Origin: Lentzea indica
GTDB taxonomy: Bacteria; Actinomycetota; Actinomycetes; Mycobacteriales; Pseudonocardiaceae
Assembly: GCF_012184385.1 (NCBI RefSeq)
Contig: NZ_VSRL01000030.1
Span: 1 to 59,077, forward strand
Reading direction: 5' to 3'
DNA length: 59,077 nt
Below are positions 20,911 through 39,317 of the stretch, piece after piece. The notes beneath the pieces are model-generated. The model saw only the letters and a list, made by a program, of their open reading frames with translations. It made no database searches and had not been told where the DNA came from. The translations under genes and the position numbers were made by a program. Within the stretch, counting starts at the first letter, position 1. Each line of letters starts with the position of its first letter.

Positions 20911-21606
20911 ATGTTCCAGACCGACGGTTACGAGACGCACGGCCGCCTGCTGGCCCCGTCGAAGTTCGAGGCACTGGCCCAGCACTTCGAGCGGAAGCTG
21001 GCGGCGCTGCCGGAGGGCGAGCGTCCCGAGCACATGGACGTGCCGCACCTGACCGACCCGGCGCTGTTCGAGTGGCTGCTGGACTCGGACGTGCTGGACC
21101 TCGTCGAGTCGCTGATCGGCCCGGACATCGCGCTGTTCTCGTCGCACTTCATCTGCAAACCCGCCGGCGACGGCAAACCCGTTCCGTGGCACCAGGACGC
21201 GCACTTCTGGCGCGACAGCATCGACCCGGCGGGCGACGCGATCACCGTGTGGCTGGCGATCGACCCGTCGACGGTCGAGAACGGCTGCCTGCGCGTGATC
21301 CCCGGCAGTCATCTCGCCCCTGTCGAGCACACGGGTAACGCCGACTCGTTCTTCAACCAGGAAACGTCCGTCGACGAGTCGCGCGCCGTCGACGTGGAGC
21401 TGGAGCGGGGCGCCTGCAGCATCCACTCGGCGATGCTGGTACACGGCAGTCCGCCGAACCGCAGCACAATGCGGCGCTGCGGCTACACCATGCGGTACAT
21501 GCCGACCACTGTCCGCTTTCTCAAGTCCGGCTCGCACGAGGTCTACCTCGCGCGCGGTCGTGACCACGCGGGAAACGCCTACGCGCCGGTGCCAATGATC
21601 GGATGA
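20911..21606 (+). CDS. Phytanoyl-CoA dioxygenase-family Fe(II)/2-oxoglutarate oxygenase
   Basis: A 231-residue PhyH-family oxygenase. The iron triad is H94-x-D96 (PWHQDAHFW) and H178 (AMLVHGSPPNRS), with R184 likely to bind 2-oxoglutarate. It starts four bases after the ATPase stop with GTGAGG as ribosome binding site, so it belongs to the transport operon. It most likely hydroxylates or oxidatively cleaves the imported compound. Bacterial PhyH proteins act on phosphonates, ectoine, halogenation substrates and many small molecules, so the substrate cannot be named. It ends the operon before a hairpin. Confidence 0.9.
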   Translation: MFQTDGYETHGRLLAPSKFEALAQHFERKLAALPEGERPEHMDVPHLTDPALFEWLLDSDVLDLVESLIGPDIALFSSHFICKPAGDGKPVPWHQDAHFWRDSIDPAGDAITVWLAIDPSTVENGCLRVIPGSHLAPVEHTGNADSFFNQETSVDESRAVDVELERGACSIHSAMLVHGSPPNRSTMRRCGYTMRYMPTTVRFLKSGSHEVYLARGRDHAGNAYAPVPMIG

Positions 21607-21725: not shown

Positions 21726-22547
21726 GTGAAACCGGTTTCGGGGGACCGCTGGCGTGGTGTGATCGAGCGGGCGTGGCGTCCGGCCGCACTGCTCGTCGCC
21801 TGTCTCGCGATCTGGCACCTCATCACCGTCACGGGCCTCGTCGAGGCCTATCTGGTGCCGTCGCCGGGCAAGACGTTCGACCTGCTCGTGGACAAATGGT
21901 CCTACCTTTGGGGTCATACCTGGGTGACCACGTACGAGACGATCCTGGGTTTCGTCATCGCCGGCGTCCTCGGCGTCCTGATGGCCGTCGCGATGGTCTA
22001 CTCCAGGACGATCGAGAGCACGGCCTACCCGATCCTGCTGTTCGCGCAGGTCATCCCGAAGATCGCCATCGCGCCGCTGTTCGTGGTGTGGCTCGGCTTC
22101 GGCTTCGAGCCCAAGGTGATCGTGGCCGTGCTCATGGCGTTCTTCCCGGTCGTCATCTCCACGGTCACCGGTCTCAAATCGGTCGACACCGAGATGCTCG
22201 AGCTCGCGGCCACGATGGGCGGCGGCCCGGTCAAGACGTTCGTGAAGATCCGCTTCCCGGCCGCGCTCCCGCACCTGTTCGCCGGCCTGAAGGTCGCCGT
22301 GACGCTGGCCGTCACCGGTGCTGTCGTCGGTGAGTTCGTCGGCTCCAACGAGGGTCTCGGCTACGTGATCCTGCAGGCCAACGGCAACATGGACACCCCG
22401 ATGCTCTTCGCGGGCCTGATCGTCATCTCGCTCGTCGGCATCCTGCTCTTCCTCCTGCTCGACCTCGCGGAACAGCTGATGCTGCCGTGGCACGCCAGCC
22501 GGCGAGGCGCCGCCGTCACAACCCTTCTAGCGAAAGGCGGATCATGA
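21726..22547 (+). CDS. NitT/TauT-type ABC transporter permease
   Basis: A 273-residue SsuC/TauC-type permease with about six helices and an EAA-like loop ELAATMGGGPVKTFVKIRFPAALP (residues about 159-182). GTG at 21726 follows AGGGAGC. It is the first gene of an operon with a binding lipoprotein, an ATPase and a TIR protein. The family imports sulfonates, nitrate, taurine, pyrimidine precursors or similar small molecules. A LacI-like operator before it is unusual for this class and hints at carbon control. Confidence 0.9.
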   Translation: MKPVSGDRWRGVIERAWRPAALLVACLAIWHLITVTGLVEAYLVPSPGKTFDLLVDKWSYLWGHTWVTTYETILGFVIAGVLGVLMAVAMVYSRTIESTAYPILLFAQVIPKIAIAPLFVVWLGFGFEPKVIVAVLMAFFPVVISTVTGLKSVDTEMLELAATMGGGPVKTFVKIRFPAALPHLFAGLKVAVTLAVTGAVVGEFVGSNEGLGYVILQANGNMDTPMLFAGLIVISLVGILLFLLLDLAEQLMLPWHASRRGAAVTTLLAKGGS

Positions 22548-23554
22548 AGAAACTGCTCGCAGGCCTTCTCCCCGCGATGCTGGTGGTTGCCGCCTGCGGA
22601 GGCGGTGGCGGCACGTCCTCACAGGGCGGCAGCGGCGAGACCAAAGAGGTCACGCTGACTCTCAACTGGTACCCGTACGGCGAGCACGCGCCGTTCTACT
22701 ACGGGGTCAAGCAGGGGATCTTCGAGAAGCACGGCATCAAGCTGAAGATCCAGGCGGGCCAGGGCTCCGGCAAGACCGTCACGGCGACCGGCGCCGGCCA
22801 GACGGACTTCGGCTGGGCGGACACGTCCGCGCTCGCCACCGCGGTCGAGCAGGGTGTGCCTGCCAAGAGCATCGGGGTGTTCCTGCAGACTACGCCCGCG
22901 TCGGTGCAGTTCTTCACCGAGAAGAACATCAAGAAGCCGGAGGATCTCAAGGGCAAGTCCGTCGCCACGACCGCGGGTGACGCGCTGACGAAGACCTTCC
23001 CGGCGTTCCTCAAGCAGAACGGCATGCAGGAGTCCGACGTCTCCGTCCAGAACATCGACCCGGCCGGCAAGATGGCCGCGGTCATCTCCGGCCGCACCGA
23101 CGTGCTGCTCGGGTTCGCGTCCGACCAGGGGCCGACGATCAAGGAGAAGTCCGGCAAGGACGTCTCGTACCTGCGGTTCTCCGAGTTCGGGCTGAACTAC
23201 TTCAGCAACGGGCTGCTCACCAGCAAGTCCATGCTGCAGAAGGACCCCGACCTGGTGAAGAAGATGGTCACGGCGACGCAGGAGGCGTGGACGGCGGCCG
23301 AGAAGGCACCGGAGGCCGCGGCAGAGTCGATGAAGGGCGCCGCCGAGCAGCTGCCGTCGCCGGCGGTCGTGCTGGAGCAGTTCAAGACGACGCTGACGTT
23401 GCTGCACACCGATGCCACGAAGGACAAGGCGCCGGGCGTCAACACGGTGGACGACTGGAAGAAGACCATCGACACGTTCCAGAAGACCGGCATCATCAAG
23501 GAAGCGTCCGAGCCTTCGGCGTACTGGGAAGAAAGCGTTGCCCCGAAGGGATGA
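22544..23554 (+). CDS. NitT/TauT/THI5-like substrate-binding lipoprotein
   Basis: A 336-residue binding lipoprotein of the SsuA/THI5-like (NMT1) family. Lipobox VVAAC ends at about residue 18. The mature N-terminus VTLTLNWYPYGEHAPFYYGVKQGIFEKHGIKLKI matches THI5-like pyrimidine-precursor binders, and GQTDFGWAD and LKGKSVATTAGD follow. ATG at 22544 overlaps the permease stop (ATGA). Gene order permease, binding protein, ATPase is tight. The NWYP-type motif favours a thiamine-pyrimidine or aromatic ligand over sulfonates, but this is not proven. Confidence 0.9.
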   Translation: MKKLLAGLLPAMLVVAACGGGGGTSSQGGSGETKEVTLTLNWYPYGEHAPFYYGVKQGIFEKHGIKLKIQAGQGSGKTVTATGAGQTDFGWADTSALATAVEQGVPAKSIGVFLQTTPASVQFFTEKNIKKPEDLKGKSVATTAGDALTKTFPAFLKQNGMQESDVSVQNIDPAGKMAAVISGRTDVLLGFASDQGPTIKEKSGKDVSYLRFSEFGLNYFSNGLLTSKSMLQKDPDLVKKMVTATQEAWTAAEKAPEAAAESMKGAAEQLPSPAVVLEQFKTTLTLLHTDATKDKAPGVNTVDDWKKTIDTFQKTGIIKEASEPSAYWEESVAPKG

Positions 23555-24345
23555 GCGTGACTCTGGGAACCACCACCTCCGCCGTCGCGATCGACGACGT
23601 CTCCGTGCGCTTCCAGTCGAAGCGCACGGAGGTCACGGCGATCCAGCAGGTCTCGCTCGACGTCGCTCCCGGCGAGTTCGTGTCGATCGTCGGGCCGTCA
23701 GGCTGCGGCAAGTCGACCCTGTTGAAGCTGGTCTCCGGCCTGCTCAAGCCGTCTTCGGGCTCGGTGACGCTGCTCGGCGAGGAGGTCCGCGGGCCGCGGC
23801 ACGACATCGGGTTCGTGTTTCAGCGGGCGGCGTTGCTGGAGTGGCGTTCCGCGCGGCGCAACATCCTGCTGCAGGCCGAGATGCGCGGCATGAACCCGGC
23901 GGAGGCCGGTAAGCGCGCCGACGAGCTCATTGAAATGACCGGACTCTCAGGGTTCGAGAACGCCCTGCCGCACGAGCTGTCCGGTGGCATGCAGCAGCGC
24001 GTGGCGTTGTGCCGCGCGCTGCTGCATCAGCCACGCGTGCTGCTGATGGACGAGCCGTTCGGCGCGCTGGACGCGTTGACCCGCGAGCAGATGAACGTGG
24101 AGCTGCACCGGGTGTGGCGGGAGACCGGCACGACCGTGCTGCTCGTGACGCACTCGATCGCGGAGTCGGTGTACCTGGCGAACCGGGTGATCGTGCTGAC
24201 GCAACGGCCCGCAGTGGTCAAGGAGGTCATCGACGTCGACCTGCCCTCGGAGCGCGACTACTCCGAGACGATGGCCCGTCCTGCGTTCTCCTCGGTGACC
24301 GCGCACATCCGTGACCTGCTCGGAGCCGTGACAGGGCACGATTGA
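23551..24345 (+). CDS. NitT/TauT-type ABC transporter ATP-binding protein
   Basis: A 264-residue SsuB/TauB-type ATPase: Walker A GPSGCGKS at residues 48-55, FVFQRAALLEWRSARRNI after the Q-loop, signature LSGGMQQR, Walker B LLMDEPFGALDALTR and the switch VTHSIAESVYLA. The sequence LLEWRS is typical of this subfamily. ATG at 23551 overlaps the previous stop. The TIR gene begins three bases after its stop codon. Confidence 0.93.
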   Translation: MSVTLGTTTSAVAIDDVSVRFQSKRTEVTAIQQVSLDVAPGEFVSIVGPSGCGKSTLLKLVSGLLKPSSGSVTLLGEEVRGPRHDIGFVFQRAALLEWRSARRNILLQAEMRGMNPAEAGKRADELIEMTGLSGFENALPHELSGGMQQRVALCRALLHQPRVLLMDEPFGALDALTREQMNVELHRVWRETGTTVLLVTHSIAESVYLANRVIVLTQRPAVVKEVIDVDLPSERDYSETMARPAFSSVTAHIRDLLGAVTGHD

Positions 24346-24348
24346 TCG

Positions 24349-26166
24349 GTGCCGAACGTATTCGTCAGCTACTCAAGGCGGGACTTCCACGCTGCCGAGG
24401 CGCTCACCTCGGTGCTCGCCGCGTCCGGCCGAGTCAGCACCTGGCTGGACGTCGAGCACCTGCGGCCGGGCACCGACTGGGAGATCGCGATCAACGCCGC
24501 GATCGACCACGCGGACGCCCTCGTCGTCGTGGGGTCGCCCGCCGCCGTCAAATCCCAGTGGGTCACGGGGGAGTGGCAACGCGCGCTCCGCAACGGCACT
24601 CCGGTGCACGTGGCGCTGGTTCACGACACCGAACTGCCGCCGGAGCTCACGTCGGTGCACGATCTGCGCGGCAGCTTCTTCGCCGAGGCCCGCAGGCTGG
24701 TCGGCGTCATCTGGGGCCAGGTCGAGCCACGCCCCCGGCGCCGGTTCCCCCTGTCGCGGCAGATGGCTCTGCTGTGGGCGGTGCTGCTGTTCTGCACGGT
24801 GACAGCGGGCGTGGGCGCCACTCTCGGCTGGGACATCGGCCAAGTGCTCCAGCCGGTTCATGCTGGCCTGGCGCGGATCGGCTTCGCAGCGGCGCTGGCG
24901 AACGTCCTGGTCGCGGGCGGGCTGATCTACCTGATGGTGCGCCTGTTCCGGCGGACGGTGTCGCCCTCGTGGTTGCGGGAGGGGCTGGCCGCGTCGTGCC
25001 TCAGCGTGGTGTTGTCCGTGGTGGGAACGCTGATCGTGGGCGGCAGGTCCTATCTCGCAGCGGCCGGGCCGGACCCGCGGACCGACTCGGCGTGGCTCTA
25101 CCTCGCCGCGGGTGCGGCCGCCGTGTTCGGCGCGGTGCTGGTGGCGCGCTCACGCACCATCCACCTGGAGATGCCGACCGGGCTGGGCTACGACCACATT
25201 CGCGGCCGTTTCAAAGGCCATCGGGTGAGCAAGCGCCGCATGCGCCGGTTCGCCCACATGTGGGCCCTCTACCGGCCGAAGATCGACGCGTTGAAACAGG
25301 TGACCGGCGTGGGCTCCGCCGCCACCTACTGGGTGTGGTGCCATCCCGAGGACAAGCCGATCGCGAACGTGATCGCCGGAACGTGCGAGGCCGCCGGGTT
25401 CGCCAAGGACGAGGGCGATCCGCGGTGGGCGTTCGTCGTGGTGAGCACGCGGACCCCGGCCGAGGTGATCCGCAACGCGCGGGAGGTCTTCGGTGATCGT
25501 GCCGTCTTTGTGCTGGCGACGAGCCTGCACCTGGCGGAGGACGACGCGGAGCTGCGCCGTTACCAGTGGCTCGACTTCCGGGAGCAACAACCGGAGGAGC
25601 TGTACGAGTTCCTGCGCACCGCAGTCACCGGCATGCCGGGCGAGCGCGGCATGGTCACCGTGCCCACGGGCGTCGACACCTTCCGCGCGCCTCGCTACAT
25701 CACCAACTACCTGAGGTTCGGCCGCATGATGATCGGCACCGCCGCCGCGCCGCCGCTCGGGTTGATCTTAGCCGGGGACTTCGTCCGCGCGGTCCCGGTG
25801 GTGCTGGTGACCCTTCTGCTCGCCGCGTCGGTGATGAACCTGATGCGGCGGACGGCGGACCGCACCGTCACCGCGGGCGGATGGTTGATCAGAACAGTGG
25901 TGGCGTTCCTGTTGTTCATCGGCTGGCTGGTGCTGGCGCCGAACATCCAGCACATCCCGCCTGTCAACCGCGTCGGCTTCGCCGTCATCGTGGTGTGGCA
26001 GCTGTTCGGCTCCACGAAGGCGATGCTGGCGTTGTGGCTGCCGCCCGAGGAGGGGCAGAAGGTCCTGCTGGCGTCGCCACCGGTGACCCCACCGGGGTAC
26101 GCGTTCGGCGTGTCGCTGTTCTCGCTGGTGCTGGCGACCGGCTACATCTTCCTGACTCAAGCTTGA
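24349..26166 (+). CDS. Membrane-bound TIR-domain protein with second TIR-like domain
   Basis: A 605-residue protein. Residues 1-125 form a TIR domain: VFVSYSRRDFHAAEAL, TWLDVEHLRPGTDWEIAINAAI, DALVVVGSPAAVKSQWVTGEW; E45 in TDWEIAI is the likely NADase glutamate. Residues about 138-268 hold four predicted membrane helices. Residues about 322-428 look like a second, degenerate TIR-like fold (TYWVWCHPEDKPIANVIAGTCEAAGF, AFVVVSTRTPAEVI, QWLDFREQQPEELYEFL). Residues about 460-603 give five more helices. GTG at 24349 is three bases after the ATPase stop with no clear ribosome binding site, so translational coupling is likely. A transport-linked signalling or defence role is inference. Confidence 0.85.
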   Translation: MPNVFVSYSRRDFHAAEALTSVLAASGRVSTWLDVEHLRPGTDWEIAINAAIDHADALVVVGSPAAVKSQWVTGEWQRALRNGTPVHVALVHDTELPPELTSVHDLRGSFFAEARRLVGVIWGQVEPRPRRRFPLSRQMALLWAVLLFCTVTAGVGATLGWDIGQVLQPVHAGLARIGFAAALANVLVAGGLIYLMVRLFRRTVSPSWLREGLAASCLSVVLSVVGTLIVGGRSYLAAAGPDPRTDSAWLYLAAGAAAVFGAVLVARSRTIHLEMPTGLGYDHIRGRFKGHRVSKRRMRRFAHMWALYRPKIDALKQVTGVGSAATYWVWCHPEDKPIANVIAGTCEAAGFAKDEGDPRWAFVVVSTRTPAEVIRNAREVFGDRAVFVLATSLHLAEDDAELRRYQWLDFREQQPEELYEFLRTAVTGMPGERGMVTVPTGVDTFRAPRYITNYLRFGRMMIGTAAAPPLGLILAGDFVRAVPVVLVTLLLAASVMNLMRRTADRTVTAGGWLIRTVVAFLLFIGWLVLAPNIQHIPPVNRVGFAVIVVWQLFGSTKAMLALWLPPEEGQKVLLASPPVTPPGYAFGVSLFSLVLATGYIFLTQA

Positions 26167-26230
26167 CCGGGCTTGACCAGCGCACTTGTGAGGCCGAGCA
26201 CCCGTGGGTAAAGTCTGGCAAGCCGCCGCG

Positions 26231-26246
26231 TGGTAAGCGCTTTCCA
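26231..26246 (+). promoter_or_regulatory. LacI-type operator (site 2)
   Basis: TGGTAAGCGCTTTCCA, a palindrome with one mismatch, lies 23 bp before the GTG at 26270 of the first sugar dehydrogenase gene. It shares the AAGCGCTTTC core with sites 1 and 3. Confidence 0.65.
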
Positions 26247-26269
26247 AGCTGACCCACGAGGTGGTGGAT

Positions 26270-28306
26270 GTGTCCAGACGATCGTTCTCGGTCCTGTTCG
26301 CGGCACTGGCGCTCACAGCGGCTTCGTTGGTGCCACAGGCTGCCGCGCAACCCGGGCCTGTCGCTGACCCACTTCCGGCACCCGCACCGTCCGGAACGGG
26401 CGTGAAGCTGCAGGAGATCGCGCGGCTGCCGCAGTCGTCGACCACGCCCGCCGCCGGCGACAGCAGGCTCAAGCAGTACAACCGGGTCAACTACCTCGGC
26501 GAAATTCCGGACGGCTCCGGCAGGTTCTTCGTGCCGGACATGAACGGCAAGATGTACACGCTCAACCGCGACGGCAGCGGGCAGCGCACGTACCTCGACG
26601 TCCGCGCCACCATCGGCGGGAACTTCCACAACCACCAGGGACTCGGCAGCGGGTTCGGGTTCGTCGCGTTCCATCCGCAGTTCGCTTCCAACGGCAAGTT
26701 CTACACCGCGCACACCGAAGCCAAGGACGCGCTGAAGAACCGCAAGCCGGATCTTCCGTCGCCGTCCAACGCGGTGGTGCACGGCGTGATCACCGAGTGG
26801 ACCGCCACCAACCCGAAGGCCGCGACGTTCGCGGGCACGCGGCGCGAACTGCTGCGCATCGGGTTCGCCATGTACCTGCACGGTTTCCAGGAGATCGGTT
26901 TCGGCCCCGCCGACGGACTGCTGTACCTGGCGGTGGGCGACGGCGGCATCGGCTATCGCTCGGACGTGCCGCAGGACGTGAAGGTGCCGCAGGGCAAGAT
27001 CCTGCGCATCGACCCGGCGGGAACCAACAGCGGCAACAAGAAGTACGGCATCCCGCCCTCGAACCCGTTCCTGGGCAAGCCGGGCGCGCTGGCCGAGCTG
27101 TACGCGATCGGCATGCGCGACCCGTACCGGTTCAGCTGGGACTCCGGCGGCACGCACAAGATGTTCCTCGGCCACATCGGCGAGAAGGTCGTCGAGTCGG
27201 TCTACGAGGTCAAGCCCGGCGCCAATCTCGGCTGGGGGCAACGGGAAGGCCACCTGACCTACCGCCGCAACGACCCCAAGTGCCAGCTCTACCCGCTGCC
27301 CGCCGACGACGCGAAGTTCGGCTACACGTATCCGGTCGCGGGCTTCGACCACAACCGGCCCAACGGGGGTTGTGGCGACAGCGGCAACGCGTTGATCGGC
27401 GGCTTCGTCTACCGCGGCACGGCGATTCCCCAGTTGCAGGGCAAGTACGTCTACGGCGAGGGCGTGAAAGGCCTGCTGTACTACGCGGACGAGAAGGACA
27501 TGCGGGCCGGTGCGCCGATCGCGAAGACGTTCGAGCTCGCGGTGTACGACTCGGCGGGCAGGCGCACGACGATGAAGACGCTGGCCGGCAAGAGCCGCGT
27601 CGACCTGCGACTCGGCACCGACGCGGCGGGCGAGCTCTACGTGCTGGCCAAGGCGAACGGCAAGATCTGGAAGGTCACCGGCACCGTCCAGACCCTGGAG
27701 GCCTGTGACTCCGGCAGCGATGTCGTCAGCGATGTCACCGCCGCGAGGGACTGGAAGCCCGTCACGGCCTCGCGCTGGCGGTTCCCCGGCAACGAGGTGG
27801 TGCTGTCCAAGGCCGGTGCGGCGAGGCCGGGTCCGCGCAGGCCCAACGAGTACGCCGTGGTCACCAAGGGGCCGGTCTTCGGCAACGTGACCGTCGATGC
27901 CCAGGTGCGGCTGGACACGCCGGTCTCGCAGAAGGACCGCGACGTCGTGATCGTGTTCGGCCACCAGTCGGACACGCGCTTCTACTACGTGCATCTGTCG
28001 TCGGACAACAAGATCTATGCGCACAACGGGATCTTCCTCGTCGACAACGCCGACCGGCTGCGCATCGACGACCAGTGGAACGGCTCCGTCGGCGCGCCGC
28101 CCGCCGTGACGGACATGAAGTGGCACCGCGTCCGCGTCACGCACTGCGCGGACACCGGGGTGATCGCGGTGTACGTGGACGGCTCGTCGCAGCCGTTGAT
28201 GACGGCCACGAACACGGTGCTGAAGTCGGGACGTGCCGGGTTCGGCTCGTTCGACAACATCGGCCGCGTCGCCGACCTCAGGATCAGCGGGAAGGGACAG
28301 CGATGA
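26270..28306 (+). CDS. Secreted PQQ-type sugar dehydrogenase with C-terminal lectin-like domain (copy 1)
   Basis: A 678-residue exported protein. It has a Tat-like start (SRRSFSVLFAALALTAAS) and cleavage near QAAAQP. Residues about 65-475 form a GSDH/sorbosone-dehydrogenase beta-propeller: NYLGEIPDGSGRFFVPDMNGKMY, HNHQGLGSGFGFVAFHP, VPQGKILRIDPAG, YAIGMRDPYRFSWD, GANLGWGQREG, and GNALIGGFVYRG. Residues about 485-678 form a concanavalin/LamG-like beta-sandwich (FRFYY-like DTRFYYVHLSSDNKIYAHN, WHRVRVTHCADTGVIAVYVDG). GTG at 26270 is preferred over 26261 because GAGG is eight bases upstream and it matches the start of copy 2. Coupled by ATGA overlap to the LamG gene. Oxidises sugars or sugar polymers if PQQ binds; substrate and electron acceptor unknown. 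Confidence 0.88.
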   Translation: MSRRSFSVLFAALALTAASLVPQAAAQPGPVADPLPAPAPSGTGVKLQEIARLPQSSTTPAAGDSRLKQYNRVNYLGEIPDGSGRFFVPDMNGKMYTLNRDGSGQRTYLDVRATIGGNFHNHQGLGSGFGFVAFHPQFASNGKFYTAHTEAKDALKNRKPDLPSPSNAVVHGVITEWTATNPKAATFAGTRRELLRIGFAMYLHGFQEIGFGPADGLLYLAVGDGGIGYRSDVPQDVKVPQGKILRIDPAGTNSGNKKYGIPPSNPFLGKPGALAELYAIGMRDPYRFSWDSGGTHKMFLGHIGEKVVESVYEVKPGANLGWGQREGHLTYRRNDPKCQLYPLPADDAKFGYTYPVAGFDHNRPNGGCGDSGNALIGGFVYRGTAIPQLQGKYVYGEGVKGLLYYADEKDMRAGAPIAKTFELAVYDSAGRRTTMKTLAGKSRVDLRLGTDAAGELYVLAKANGKIWKVTGTVQTLEACDSGSDVVSDVTAARDWKPVTASRWRFPGNEVVLSKAGAARPGPRRPNEYAVVTKGPVFGNVTVDAQVRLDTPVSQKDRDVVIVFGHQSDTRFYYVHLSSDNKIYAHNGIFLVDNADRLRIDDQWNGSVGAPPAVTDMKWHRVRVTHCADTGVIAVYVDGSSQPLMTATNTVLKSGRAGFGSFDNIGRVADLRISGKGQR

Positions 28307-29241
28307 GGAAAGCTCTGCCGGGACTGTGCCTCGTCCTCGCGCTCGCCGCACCGGCGCAGGCCCAGCCTCCTTCGGAAGTGTTCCCCGGCATCGCGTCCGC
28401 GGTCGTCAACCACTACGACTTCGAGCACCCTTCCGCTGGTGACGCGAAGAAGGAGGACGACATCGGCCGTGCCGACTCACGCACGCCGATCTCGCTGATC
28501 AACGGCGGCGCGGCGATGCGCACGGTGGACGGCGCGTTCCCGGGCTCGAAGACATCGTTGCAGCTCAAGCAGGTGCGGCCGAACAACAAGAGCAACGACG
28601 ACTGGAAGGCCGGCGTCTACAGCTCGTCCGGCGTCGCGTCGATGAAGGCGTTCAACAAGGCGCGCGGCATGTCGATCATGACCTGGGTGAAGATCACCGG
28701 CGAGGCGCCCGCGCGGAACTCCAACTCGTCAGGCACCGGCGACTTCTACGGCGCGATCGGCATCGCGGGCGTGTTGTCCGGCGACTCCAACGGGCATGCC
28801 GCGCGCGCCCTGCTGGAGACGGAGAACCACAACGGCGCGATGCGGCTGATCGCGCTCGGCCGCCGGGTGGACGGCGGTGACAAGCAGTTCTTCGTGGCCA
28901 ACGCCGACTGGAAGACGTTGCTGCCGCCGGGGAAGTGGGTGTTCCTCGCGGGGACGTTCGACTTCGACAACGGCACGATCGGCCTCTACGTCGACGGCAA
29001 GCAGGTCGACGGTTCCTACGCGGTCAAAGGAGATCCCTGGAAGGTCATCGGAGCTCCCGAGCCCGACCTGACGTCCGCCACGAACCCGCGCGGAATCAAG
29101 GTCGGCGGCAGTCATCCGCAGAACAACCGCGAGGTCAACGCGTGCAACTGCAGGCTCGACGGACTCATGTTCCTGGACCGCGCCCTGACGGCAGACGAGG
29201 TGCGCGGACAGTACGAGTGGGTGACCAAAGGTCGGAGGTGA
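28303..29241 (+). CDS. Secreted LamG/concanavalin-like protein (copy 1)
   Basis: A 312-residue exported single-domain beta-sandwich protein. The signal peptide ends PAQAQ at about residue 21. SVVNHYDFEHP is the usual first strand of LamG_3 domains, and KWVFLAGTFDFDNGTIGLYVDGKQVDG and NACNCRLDGLMFLDRALTADEV are typical later elements. The four-base overlap with the dehydrogenase implies equal expression. It may bind the polymer that the dehydrogenase oxidises or be its partner subunit. No catalytic residues are recognised. Confidence 0.85.
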   Translation: MRKALPGLCLVLALAAPAQAQPPSEVFPGIASAVVNHYDFEHPSAGDAKKEDDIGRADSRTPISLINGGAAMRTVDGAFPGSKTSLQLKQVRPNNKSNDDWKAGVYSSSGVASMKAFNKARGMSIMTWVKITGEAPARNSNSSGTGDFYGAIGIAGVLSGDSNGHAARALLETENHNGAMRLIALGRRVDGGDKQFFVANADWKTLLPPGKWVFLAGTFDFDNGTIGLYVDGKQVDGSYAVKGDPWKVIGAPEPDLTSATNPRGIKVGGSHPQNNREVNACNCRLDGLMFLDRALTADEVRGQYEWVTKGRR

Positions 29242-29289
29242 GGGTTGTAACCACCCTATTAGCTAGGTAGATTCCGGGTGCCGCTGCAT

Positions 29290-29305
29290 TGGAAAGCGCT
29301 TTCCG
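29290..29305 (+). promoter_or_regulatory. LacI-type operator (site 3)
   Basis: TGGAAAGCGCTTTCCG, with the perfect core GGAAAGCGCTTTCC, lies 39 bp before the ATG at 29345 of the second dehydrogenase. It shares its core with sites 1 and 2. Confidence 0.7.
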
Positions 29306-29344
29306 CTGCCGTGCTGGCACGGCCTGGCCCACAGGGTGGTGGGG

Positions 29345-31405
29345 ATGTACAGACGGTTCTCTCGGCTGGCTGTCACAACATTCGTGCTCTCAGCGTTGTT
29401 CGTGCCCATCGCATCGGCTCAGCCGGATGCGCCGATCGCCGACCCGTTGCCGACGCCGGGGGCGTCCGGAATCGGCCTGGAGCTCACCGAGGTCGCGCAG
29501 CTGCCGGAGTCCAAACCGGTGCCACCGCCGACCGACGCCCGGCTGCGCCGCTACAACCGGATCAACTACCTCGGCGAGGTGCCGGACGGCTCCGGCCGGC
29601 TGTTCGTGCCGGACATGAACGGCAAGCTGTACCTGCTGGATCACGGCGTCGAGCACGCGTTCCTGGACCTGGGCGCGGCCGTCGGCCCGGACTTCCACAC
29701 CCACCGCGGCCTGGGCAGCGGTTTCGGGTTCGCGGCGTTCCACCCGAACTTCAAGCGCAACGGCAAGTTCTACACCGTGCACACCGAAACCGGTGACGCA
29801 CTCACGTCGAAGAAGCCGGATCTGCCGTCCCCGGCGAACATGCAGGTCCACGGCGTGATCACCGAGTGGACCGCCTCAGACCCTCGCGCCGACGTGTTCT
29901 CCGGGACCCGCCGCGAGATCATGCGCGTCGGCTACGCGACGTTCATCCACGGCTTCCAGGAGATCGGCTTCAACCCGACGGCCCACTGGTGGGACGAGGA
30001 CTACGGCCTGCTGTACATCGCCTCGGGCGACGGTGGCATCGGCATTTCGACGACGGTGCCGCAGGACCTGGCGCTGCCGCAGGGCAAGATCCTGCGCATC
30101 GATCCCGCTGGCAAGAACGGCGTGAACGGCCAGTACGGCATCCCGCGCTCGAACCCGTTCCTGCGCAAGGCGGGCGCACTGGGCGAGATCTACGCGTACG
30201 GCATGCGCGACCCGTACCGCTTCAGCTGGGACTCCCGCGGTGCGCACAAGATGTTCCTGGGCCACATCGGCGAGAAGGCCGTCGACTCGGTCTACGAGGT
30301 GCGCAAGGGCGCCAACCTCGGCTGGAGCGAGCGGGAGGGCCTCTGGGAGTTCCGCCGCGGTGACCCTTCGTGCGGCGTGTTCCCGCTGCCTGCTGACGAC
30401 GCGAAGCACGGCTACACCTATCCCGTCACCGCGTTCGACCACAACCGGCTCGCCTCCTCGCGTCCGTGCGCCGACAGCGGCAACGCGTTGATGGGCGGCT
30501 TCGTCTATCGCGGGTCAAAGATCCCTTCGTTGCGCGGCAAGTACATCTACGGCGAGGGTGTGAAGGGCCTCATCTACTACGCCGAGGAGCGCGAGATGCG
30601 CACCGGCAGGCCGATGGCCACGACGCGCGAAATGATGGTGTACGCCGATGGCCGGCTGACCACTCTGAAGGCTTTGGTCAACGACCCGAACCGCGTCGAC
30701 CTGAGGTTCGGCCAGGACGCTGACGGCGAGCTTTACTTGCTGGCCAAGGCGAACGGCAAGATCTGGAAGGTGACGGGCGCTCGCACCTTCGCCTCCTGTC
30801 GCTCCGGCCACGACTTCGTCCACGGTGCTTCCTCTGCCCGTTCATGGGAGCCGGTGACGCCCGCTTTGTGGCAGTTCCCAGGTCGTGAAGTCGTGCTGGC
30901 ACAACCCGGTTCCGCACGCCCCGGCCCGCGTCGGCCGTTCGAGTACGCGGTTCTGAAGAAGGGCCCGACGTTCGGTTCGGTGCAAATCGACGCTTCGGTC
31001 CGACTGGACACCCCGGTGTCCGAGTCCAACCGGGACGTGATCATCGTGTTCGGCTACAAGTCCGACACCGAGTTCTACTACGCGCATCTCTCGTCCGACA
31101 ACAAGATCTATCCGCACAACGGGATCTTCGTCGTCAACAACGCGGACCGCCTGCGGCTCGACCATCAATGGGATGCCGCACGTTCGGTCGGTGCTGCTCC
31201 TGCGGTGACTGATACCGCGTGGCATCGCGTACGGGTCAAGCACTGCGCCGATTCGGGCGAGATCGCGGTGTACGTGGACGGGTCTCCGTATCCGCTGATG
31301 ACCGCTGTGGACAAGACCTTCTCCTCGGGCCGTGTCGGCTTCGGGTCGTTCGACAACATCGGCAGGCTGCGCGACCTGCGCGTGCAGGGCAAGGGGCTCG
31401 AGTGA
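29345..31405 (+). CDS. Secreted PQQ-type sugar dehydrogenase with C-terminal lectin-like domain (copy 2)
   Basis: A 686-residue paralog of the gene at 26270, conserved along its whole length: FVPDMNGKLYLLD, HTHRGLGSGFGFAAFHP, VIHGVITEW-like GVITEWTASDP, LPQGKILRIDPAG, YAYGMRDPYRFSWD, GANLGWSEREG, and the C-terminal domain EFYYAHLSSDNKIYPHN. One insertion, NPTAHWWDEDYG near residue 220, is absent from copy 1 and lies in the propeller. ATG at 29345 corresponds exactly to the GTG start of copy 1. The pair with the following LamG gene repeats the upstream pair, so the two modules arose by tandem duplication. The differing insertion suggests different substrates. Confidence 0.88.
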   Translation: MYRRFSRLAVTTFVLSALFVPIASAQPDAPIADPLPTPGASGIGLELTEVAQLPESKPVPPPTDARLRRYNRINYLGEVPDGSGRLFVPDMNGKLYLLDHGVEHAFLDLGAAVGPDFHTHRGLGSGFGFAAFHPNFKRNGKFYTVHTETGDALTSKKPDLPSPANMQVHGVITEWTASDPRADVFSGTRREIMRVGYATFIHGFQEIGFNPTAHWWDEDYGLLYIASGDGGIGISTTVPQDLALPQGKILRIDPAGKNGVNGQYGIPRSNPFLRKAGALGEIYAYGMRDPYRFSWDSRGAHKMFLGHIGEKAVDSVYEVRKGANLGWSEREGLWEFRRGDPSCGVFPLPADDAKHGYTYPVTAFDHNRLASSRPCADSGNALMGGFVYRGSKIPSLRGKYIYGEGVKGLIYYAEEREMRTGRPMATTREMMVYADGRLTTLKALVNDPNRVDLRFGQDADGELYLLAKANGKIWKVTGARTFASCRSGHDFVHGASSARSWEPVTPALWQFPGREVVLAQPGSARPGPRRPFEYAVLKKGPTFGSVQIDASVRLDTPVSESNRDVIIVFGYKSDTEFYYAHLSSDNKIYPHNGIFVVNNADRLRLDHQWDAARSVGAAPAVTDTAWHRVRVKHCADSGEIAVYVDGSPYPLMTAVDKTFSSGRVGFGSFDNIGRLRDLRVQGKGLE

Positions 31406-32334
31406 TGAGACGACTGCTGGTACTTGGTGTTGCTCTTGCCTTCGGCGTCGGCTTGGCCGCACCCGCCCAAGCCACGTTCGGCACGGTGCTGCCGACGTTG
31501 TCCCGCAACCTGGTGTCGTACTACGACTTCGAGCACCCGGTGCGCGGCAACAAGGCCCTGGAAAAGGACAGCGGCCGTTCAGGCACCGCCCTGTCGTTGA
31601 TCAACGGCGGCGCCGACATGCGAGTGCGCGACGGTGCGTTCCGGCGCAGCCGCAACTCGTTGCAGCTCAAGCAGATCAATCCGTTGAGCGCGGGCAACGA
31701 CGACTGGAAGGCGGGCCTGTACAGCGAGACCGGAGTGCCCAGTCTGCGTGCCTTCAACGGCGCACGTCAGGCGTCGATCATGGGCTGGGTCAAGATGACG
31801 GGCCAGAACCCGGCCCCGAACTCGAACTCGGCCAACCCGAACGACCTCTACGGCGCGATCGGTCTGGCCGGCGTGCTGTCCGGCGACTCCAACGGCCACG
31901 CGGTGCGCGCGCTGCTGGAGTTGATCCAGGTCGACGGCGAGCTCAAGCTCGTCGCCCTGGCCAGGAGGATCGACGGTGGAAACTCGCAGACGTTCGCGGC
32001 GGCCGAACCCTGGCAGAAGCTGTTGCCCGATGGCGAATGGGTGTTTCTCGCGGCCACGTTCGACTTCGACACCGGCGCGATGGCGTTGTACCGCAACGGA
32101 AAGCCGTTGGCCGGCAAGTACGTCGTCGCGGGCGATCCGTGGAAGCTGGAAGGTGAACCGGAGCCGGATCTCACGTCGGCCACTGATCCGCGCGGGATCA
32201 AGATCGGTGGCAGCTACCCACAGAACAGCCGCGAGGGCAACGCCTGCAACTGCCGGATGGACAGCCTGATGTTCCTCGACCGGGTCGCGAAGCCGTGGGA
32301 GGTGCACCTCCAGTACCACTGGATGAAGGGCTAG
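31405..32334 (+). CDS. Secreted LamG/concanavalin-like protein (copy 2)
   Basis: A 309-residue paralog of the gene at 28303: signal peptide ending APAQA (residue about 22), LVSYYDFEHP, NSLQLKQINPLSAGNDDWKAGLYS, DLYGAIGLAGVLSGDSNGHA, EWVFLAATFDFDTGAMALYRNGK, NACNCRMDSLMFLDR. Its ATG shares the A of the dehydrogenase stop (TGATG); an in-frame GTG three bases earlier is also possible. Role as for copy 1. It ends before a shared terminator with the convergent esterase. Confidence 0.85.
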   Translation: MRRLLVLGVALAFGVGLAAPAQATFGTVLPTLSRNLVSYYDFEHPVRGNKALEKDSGRSGTALSLINGGADMRVRDGAFRRSRNSLQLKQINPLSAGNDDWKAGLYSETGVPSLRAFNGARQASIMGWVKMTGQNPAPNSNSANPNDLYGAIGLAGVLSGDSNGHAVRALLELIQVDGELKLVALARRIDGGNSQTFAAAEPWQKLLPDGEWVFLAATFDFDTGAMALYRNGKPLAGKYVVAGDPWKLEGEPEPDLTSATDPRGIKIGGSYPQNSREGNACNCRMDSLMFLDRVAKPWEVHLQYHWMKG

Positions 32335-38041: not shown

Positions 38042-38163
38042 AGGAATGTGCTCTGCGGTTCCGCGGCGCCCTGGCACTGCGGGAAAGCCCGGACGCTGGG
38101 ATATGACGTCGTGGTCCGAACCCAGGCGGCTGTGTCGAACGCGTGTTCGGTATGGTCGGTCGG

Positions 38164-39317
38164 GTGAAGCTCGTCGTGCAGGTGAAGCTGCTGCCGACCG
38201 CCGAGCAGGCGGCGGCGTTGCGGTCGACTCTGCAGGCGTGCAACGACGCCGCCGATGAGGTGTCGCGGGTGGCGTTCGAGACGGGTGTGTTTCGTGAGTA
38301 TGCGCTGCGCAAGCCCACCTACGCCGCGTTGAAGGCGCGGGGTTTGGGTGCGCAGGCCGCCCAGCATGTGATCAAGAAGGTCGCGGACGCCTACGCCGCG
38401 TTGCACGCGAACATCCGCAACGGCAACCTCGGCCCTGCGGGTAGTAGGCGGCGGGTGAAGGCGGAGTCGGAACCGATCGGGTTCCGGTCTGAGGCGGCGC
38501 AGCCGTTCGATGACCGCTGCTTGTCGTGGCAGCACGACGCGGGCACGGTGTCGATCTGGACTGTTGCGGGCAGGGTGAAGCACCTGCGGTTCACGGGTTC
38601 GCCGGAGCAGCTCACGACGCTGCGGGCGTATCGGCGGGGCGAGTCGGACCTGGTGTTCCGCGACGCTATGTGGTTTCTGATCGCCACCTGCGATGTCGAG
38701 GAAAAGCCCGAGTTCGAACCGGTCGACTGGATCGGGGTGGACCGGGGCATCGTGAACCTGGCGACCACCAGCGATCTGGACAACTTCCAGGGGCGCCGGC
38801 TGCGGCGCTATCGGCGCTGGCATGCCCGCAAACGTGCCGAGTTGCAGGCCAAGCGCACCAAGTCCGCGACCCGCCGGTTGAAACGTCGCGCGAAGCGAGA
38901 AGCACGGCACGCTCATCACGTGAACCACAGGATCGCCAAGCAGATTGTGGCTGTTGCCGAACGCACCGGCCGCGGTATCGCCCTGGAAGACCTGGCGGTA
39001 TCCGTGACCGGGTCACGGTTTCCCGGCACCAGCGAGCCACACTCAACACCTGGCCGTTCCACCGGCTCGAACAGCACCTCCGCTACAAAGCGAAACGCGC
39101 CGGTGTGCCGGTGCTGCTCGTCGACGCGCGGTACACCAGCCAGAGGTGCCCGCGGTGCGGGCACACCGACCGCGCCAACCGTCCCAGCAGGGACCATTTT
39201 CACTGTCGCCGGTGCGGTCTCGCTGGACCCGCCGACGTCGTCGCCGCCGTGAACATCCGAAACCGGGCACGGTCGGTGTGGGTACACGTCAACGTGCCCG
39301 ACCCGGCAGCTGCCTGA
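38164..39317 (+). pseudogene. tnpB: tnpB (IS200/IS605 OrfB, RNA-guided nuclease) with one frameshift
   Basis: The gene starts V-KLVVQVKLLPTAEQAAAL (GTG 38164; ATG 38152 possible) and runs in frame to IALEDL at about 38993. There a single G appears lost (GACCTGGCGG instead of GACCTGGGCGG), and homology continues in the other frame: GGIRDRVTVSRHQRATLNTW, CPRCGH..CRRCG zinc finger and PADVVAAVNIRN, ending at 39317. The RuvC residues are visible as D in WIGVDRG, E in ALEDL and D in PADVV. Apart from the frameshift the protein is intact, so decay is recent. No tnpA is present. Confidence 0.9.

Follow-up and report, generated by a model that had tools for sequence, protein, structure and literature searches.

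Most of the bacterial TIR proteins that have been studied well are soluble NAD+ enzymes. The accessible text of one paper contrasts enzymatic TIR domains with scaffolding ones and describes some TIRs as acting as scaffolds (PMC8635717). Cell death caused by the prokaryotic TIR proteins AbTIR and TcpO-TIR requires the catalytic glutamate, according to the available part of the source (PMC10022894). SLATT genes occur in some conflict systems with TIR effectors in multicellular prokaryotes, as stated in the accessible sections of the respective study (PMC7159879). The locus compared here is located on a stretch of 59,077 nucleotides from the soil actinomycete Lentzea indica (contig NZ_VSRL01000030.1, hereafter the window), where a TIR gene follows the ATPase gene of a predicted NitT/TauT-type importer (Table 1). 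We regard it as quite possible, with somewhat less than an even chance, that the predicted membrane protein acts in biological conflict as a defence-type receptor and that its gene is a dispensable passenger, which the importer operon carries at its 3' end.

Table 1. Coordinates of the TIR gene, its parts and the neighbouring genes in the window
Feature	Position	Strand	Details
ABC permease	21726..22547	+	BPD_transp_1; nearest named models SaoP, SsuC, TauC, each below cut-off
Substrate-binding protein	22544..23554	+	NMT1/THI5-like; SsuA-family model below cut-off
ABC ATPase	23551..24345	+	nearest named models SaoA, NtrCD, TauB, each below cut-off
Gene of the TIR-4TM-TIR-like-4TM protein	24349..26166	+	605 aa, GTG start; TIR_2 E 1.5e-21; model
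N-terminal TIR domain, residues 1-122	24349..24714	+	profile
Glu45 codon	24481..24483	+	aligns to the Glu presumed to be catalytic in SARM1
First membrane block, four predicted helices, residues 137-268	24757..25152	+	prediction, model
Second, likely degenerate TIR-like domain, residues 324-427	25318..25629	+	model
Second membrane block, 4-5 predicted helices, residues 449-604	25693..26160	+	prediction, model
3' flank of the TIR gene	26167..26260	+	palindromic GGTAAGCGCTTTCC at 26232-26245
GSDH-domain gene after the slot	26261..28306	+	boundary gene for synteny

The open reading frame of the TIR gene was confirmed to be genuine, with 605 codons in an uninterrupted frame. Its GTG start codon lies three bases 3' of the ATPase stop codon, a spacing that fits co-transcription and is in line with the coupling to the transporter claimed in the original prediction. 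Permease, binding protein and ATPase are linked by four-base overlaps of their reading frames. The palindromic stretch in the 3' flank was also found upstream of the next gene in relatives without the TIR gene. Rfam yielded no match in the window or in 12 further loci (11 importer loci from other genera and the locus of G230), so that a riboswitch for the importer substrate was rejected. A PhyH-type oxygenase is encoded at 20911-21606, between an apparent sugar-type ABC set and the importer; 19 of 22 genomes of the genus have it at the corresponding locus. At 26261-32334, a pair of one GSDH-domain and one lectin-like gene occurs twice, whereas many relatives have a single pair here; judged by eye, the slots of G245 and G241 hold remains of the other GSDH/lectin-like pair. 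The window also contains an OrfB_IS605 (TnpB-like) transposase frame (38143-39252, + strand, 369 aa, E 1.3e-10). No defence gene was recognised beside the TIR gene among the genes listed for the window, some of which were analysed with Pfam and three of their proteins with PADLOC; this counts against a defence function.

TIR_2 (PF13676) was the only Pfam family above its cut-off and matched residues 4-107 with 77.5 bits. The curated cut-off is passed and the TIR fold is present, which makes the protein a member of this family; by profile, the first domain is clearly a TIR domain, as had been predicted. The second domain, which had been predicted as TIR-like and degenerate, is likely so according to the model. 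It has no counterpart of the W-D...G..W stretch and features a near-invariant QWxDFR motif (residues 406-411). The membrane helices that had been proposed are predicted to form two blocks, each behind one of the two heads. A duplication is supported by comparison of the two protein halves with hhalign, which yielded a probability of 81% and a score of 45.4 over 122 columns, against 19.1 for the reversed control and at most 27.0 for 70 block shuffles; this alignment was seen for the longer halves only, and profile comparison of the two TIR segments alone yielded nothing. Foldseek gave no match below E 0.001 for either model. The top rows for the whole model were mostly TIR domains with a probability of 1.00, and most of the leading structural matches were confined to residues 1-125. 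Matches to PADLOC and NCBIfam models were limited to the TIR part and far below the named systems, which also counts against the defence reading.

When aligned with SARM1 (E 0.014), Glu45 falls on the glutamate of the GKFEDKL stretch, which we take to be E642. The first of two protein searches returned 26 rows with E values of at most 0.001, including the window protein; 31 rows came from the second search, which was performed with an alignment. Without the window's own row and the partial proteins P0029-P0032, 26 of these 31 rows were aligned with the window protein. Addition of 10 proteins from the fetched loci to these 27 rows led to a family set of 37, with the Glu45 column covered in 35. 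This column contains 17 Glu, 11 Ala, 5 Ser and 2 Pro residues, while Y8 (34 of 34 covered rows) and D34, W44 and E75 (35 of 35) are invariant. P0025 and the protein of L001 are near-identical; when P0025 is omitted, Glu45 is found in 16 of 34 rows and at least three changes of the column are required on the tree. The 18 rows without Glu45 have a Glu at position 47 (one row) or 50 (four rows) and an Asp at position 49 (15 rows), so another acid might stand in. With E 0.001 as the limit, the window genome (G000, 10 Mb) has 22 TIR_2 matches, each of them above the cut-off. None of the other 21 has a Glu in the Glu45 column, an assignment that is unsure outside the family due to the crude alignment. 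Since Glu45 is kept in the window protein and in almost all of the proteins closest to it (Ser in P0006), cleavage of NAD+ by the window protein has about even odds, judged from its sequence. The original assignment of Glu45 as the NADase glutamate holds with regard to position and as a possibility for this protein; the family can do without the residue. The variable column likewise weakens the case for a universal NADase function of the family.

The survey of the genus comprised 24 genomes including the window genome. The importer binding protein was found in 22 of them, and the 21 importer loci other than that of the window were examined. An intact TIR gene is present in three of the 22 importer genomes (G000, G230 and G239), always between the ATPase and the GSDH gene and with its start 3-4 bp after the ATPase stop. 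Of the 19 loci that do not hold an intact copy, 17 have a GSDH gene ~50-780 bp after the ATPase. In G244, ~1.7 kb follow the ATPase before a lectin-domain gene, and the stretch of G247 that was examined contains no GSDH gene. In the sister genome G234, a remnant of 40 bp persists at the expected position and on the expected strand, with 92.5% identity to the TIR gene and a score that none of 500 shuffles reached. A 21-base match in G248, the score of which is reached by 245 of 500 shuffles when treated as a free local match, is a probable remnant; what makes it count is solely its position downstream of the ATPase stop, in register (16 of 21 bases). Assuming a single gain, the operon tree places 21 tips beneath it and calls for six losses when remnants are counted as presence; support is weak at several of its inner nodes. 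Occurrence in three of 22 importer genomes, with a remnant in at least one more, indicates that the gene is likely a defence-type passenger and not a part of the transporter.

Beyond the operon, TIR-family matches were obtained in 12 of 390 genomes of the family (E 1e-15), one of 397 in the order sample (G000 only), two of 394 in the class sample (G000 and G921) and three of 392 in the Streptomyces sample (each E 1e-20). The best three candidates per genome were scored, so these counts may include misses. The match in G061 is a C-terminal piece with a 147-codon frame containing an internal stop and was omitted from the locus counts. We fetched 13 non-operon loci including L001 and mapped the TIR gene in 12 of them, in G225 and G095 by tblastn. 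At none of these 12 loci, which are partly dependent (three from one genus of the family, three from Streptomyces) and of which that of G095 has its downstream side off the contig, is an importer-like gene (permease, binding protein or ATPase) adjacent to the TIR gene. This is the outcome, homologs mostly away from ABC transporters, that the original prediction had named as its own refutation. Four loci contain an ATPase of 31-34% identity that is separated from the TIR gene by at least two genes, and one has a weak match of 49 residues. The importer loci of other genera, 14 of which were examined among 41 such genomes found, yielded no TIR gene.

A SLATT_3-SLATT_1 gene was observed upstream of the TIR gene and on the same strand at two of the 12 non-operon loci (G376 and G095). 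The two SLATT proteins are 57% identical, and the two TIR proteins are located on opposite sides of a deep fork in the tree. SLATT_3 was found in 12 of 13 genomes searched, with one or two matches each, and at this scarcity two chance adjacencies to the TIR gene appear unlikely. No SLATT match was obtained in the window or within the fetched stretches of the other ten loci, which counts against the defence reading; the SLATT_3 matches of the window genome are on other contigs. Ten neighbours from seven loci analysed with Pfam comprise the two SLATT genes and eight that are ordinary or without a match. On contig C11 of the window genome (L087, 3636-8658), a SLATT gene lies between the gene of a divergent WD40-repeat protein, which has a TIR_2 match in its N-terminal part, and that of a TPR-S protein. 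A gene of similar start and length is found beside the SLATT gene of G248, and the gene lists of G230, G234 and G239 have none. At the locus of G921 (L065, 10453-13490), two frames lie downstream of the TIR gene, the first of 597 aa and without a Pfam match, the second with a masked stretch.

Comparison of three genome pairs yielded dN/dS values of 0.55-0.78 for the TIR gene, whereas the genes of permease, binding protein and ATPase have 0.08-0.29. The respective dN values are 0.30-0.54 and 0.025-0.13. The dS values are also higher (0.55-0.71 compared to 0.30-0.46), hence part of the distance may result from replacement from outside. Weak constraint may be an alternative meaning of the fast evolution. 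In the tree of TIR proteins (35 rows; P0017, P0025 and P0028 omitted, G095 included), the slot copies fall into three clades, the order of which matches what vertical descent along the operon tree would give. The other slot copies are more distant from the window copy than are proteins named after Nocardia, Actinosynnema and S. gardneri. The closest named homologues from outside Lentzea (P0004, P0006 and P0008) have no full-length copy in the genomes searched. The GC3 value of the TIR gene (0.913) equals that of its neighbours (0.877-0.929) and thus gives no sign of a recent foreign origin, which speaks against a recent transfer as judged by composition. Fast vertical evolution and transfer may both be compatible with the observed distances, and the gene is perhaps mobile as well as patchy.

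The original prediction had offered two ideas, a sensor of transporter flux and a defence module parked in a stable operon. A transporter accessory that reads or regulates the NitT/TauT-type importer would be consistent with the short gap behind the ATPase in three genomes and with the predicted membrane location. However, an intact copy in the slot is missing from 19 of the 22 genomes of the genus that have the importer, the 14 examined importer loci of other genera yielded no TIR gene and all 12 non-operon copies are without an adjacent importer gene. As the majority of importers in the genus are not accompanied by the TIR gene, we consider a flux sensor very improbable; presence and absence within the genus and at these 14 loci of other genera rule against it, and the parked defence module is the better supported of the two ideas. 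The gene could also be a neutral or decaying passenger, i.e. an old and cheap insertion that evolves freely and is being lost. The clear remnant in G234, the probable one in G248, the six losses following a single gain and the high dN/dS would all agree with decay, which is nevertheless improbable, as dN/dS remains below 1 and both heads contain invariant residues in 22 aligned sequences. These two points indicate that selection acts in most lineages, and the uninterrupted frame of the window gene also stands against decay.

Absence of Glu45 in 18 of 35 rows, with D34, W44 and E75 invariant, would suit an actinomycete protein for membrane stress or developmental signalling that is not directed at phages, in which the TIR heads oligomerise and a scaffold relays a physiological signal. 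Scaffold TIRs have been described (PMC8635717, accessible text), and of the ten neighbour genes analysed with Pfam, eight either are of ordinary types or match nothing. We consider this explanation rather unlikely; a conserved physiological regulator would not be expected to occur in 12 of 390 genomes of the family, to have dN/dS values of 0.55-0.78 and to be paired with SLATT at two loci. The reading as a defence-type receptor draws on the architecture by profile and model, the profile match between the two halves, the position behind the ATPase, the patchy presence, the remnant, the fast evolution and the SLATT genes at two loci. Read-through transcription and translation coupling would supply such a receptor steadily, and both TIR heads would face the cytosol. 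A disturbance of the membrane, e.g. phage entry or lysis, could then bring the N-terminal TIR domains together, with the second head serving as a putative non-catalytic lock or docking face. With less confidence, we infer that the output might be cleavage of NAD+ in lineages that keep Glu45, including that of the window, and scaffolding or activation of a partner, such as a SLATT membrane effector, where Glu45 was lost.

It is unlikely, but conceivable, that the protein represents a new class of bacterial membrane receptors. Such a class would consist of a duplicated TIR-4TM unit, with the active-site region in one head and a built-in lock in the other. In about half of its lineages, the enzyme would have been lost and the protein would act as a TLR-like scaffold for the opening of a SLATT pore, and the importer transcript would tie immune readiness to the nutrient state in some Lentzea. 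A two-headed membrane TIR protein with a presumed catalytic Glu that comes and goes between relatives would suit the study of the change from enzymatic to scaffold TIRs, as in animal receptors. A lone immune-type gene that is carried, and lost, behind an ordinary operon is outside the reach of searches for defence islands.

Compared to known systems, the TIR gene differs from a component of a NitT/TauT importer in that it is not conserved with the importer (three of 22 genomes of the genus, none of 14 loci of other genera). Thoeris is similar at the level of the TIR domain, with weak matches to ThcB4 (30.6 bits, cut-off 220) and ThsB_TIR (16.8 bits, cut-off 21.2), but a ThsA-type effector is not adjoining and the immediate neighbours are the ABC ATPase and GSDH genes. 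The TIR-SAVED match in PADLOC covers only residues 3-81 (positions 15-93 of 404 in the profile), and Pfam detected no SAVED domain. In contrast to the TIR NADases SARM1 and SPARTA, for which structures have been solved, the window protein has no Pfam match to their other domains, and Glu45 is not kept across its family. For SPARTA, this concerns APAZ and short Argonaute, neither of which was matched, and the immediate neighbours are ABC and GSDH genes. The TIR/SLATT conflict systems, as far as the accessible text covers them (PMC7159879), resemble the two relatives with an upstream SLATT_3-SLATT_1 gene, whereas the window is without any SLATT gene. Among the genes inspected, the GTPase and regulatory core typical of these systems was not encountered. 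The duplicated TIR-4TM architecture was found neither in the profile libraries nor in the literature, subscription papers aside; with the same restriction, no literature was found on a TIR gene as passenger of an importer operon, on a TIR protein of Lentzea or on one in an ABC operon of Pseudonocardiaceae. The combination of TIR, TIR-like domain and two membrane blocks is unnamed in the Pfam, PADLOC and NCBIfam libraries searched. TIR domains, membrane anchoring and SLATT partners are each already known. The protein shares its N-terminal domain with bacterial TIR_2 (PF13676) proteins, to which it adds a likely degenerate TIR-like domain and two predicted membrane blocks.
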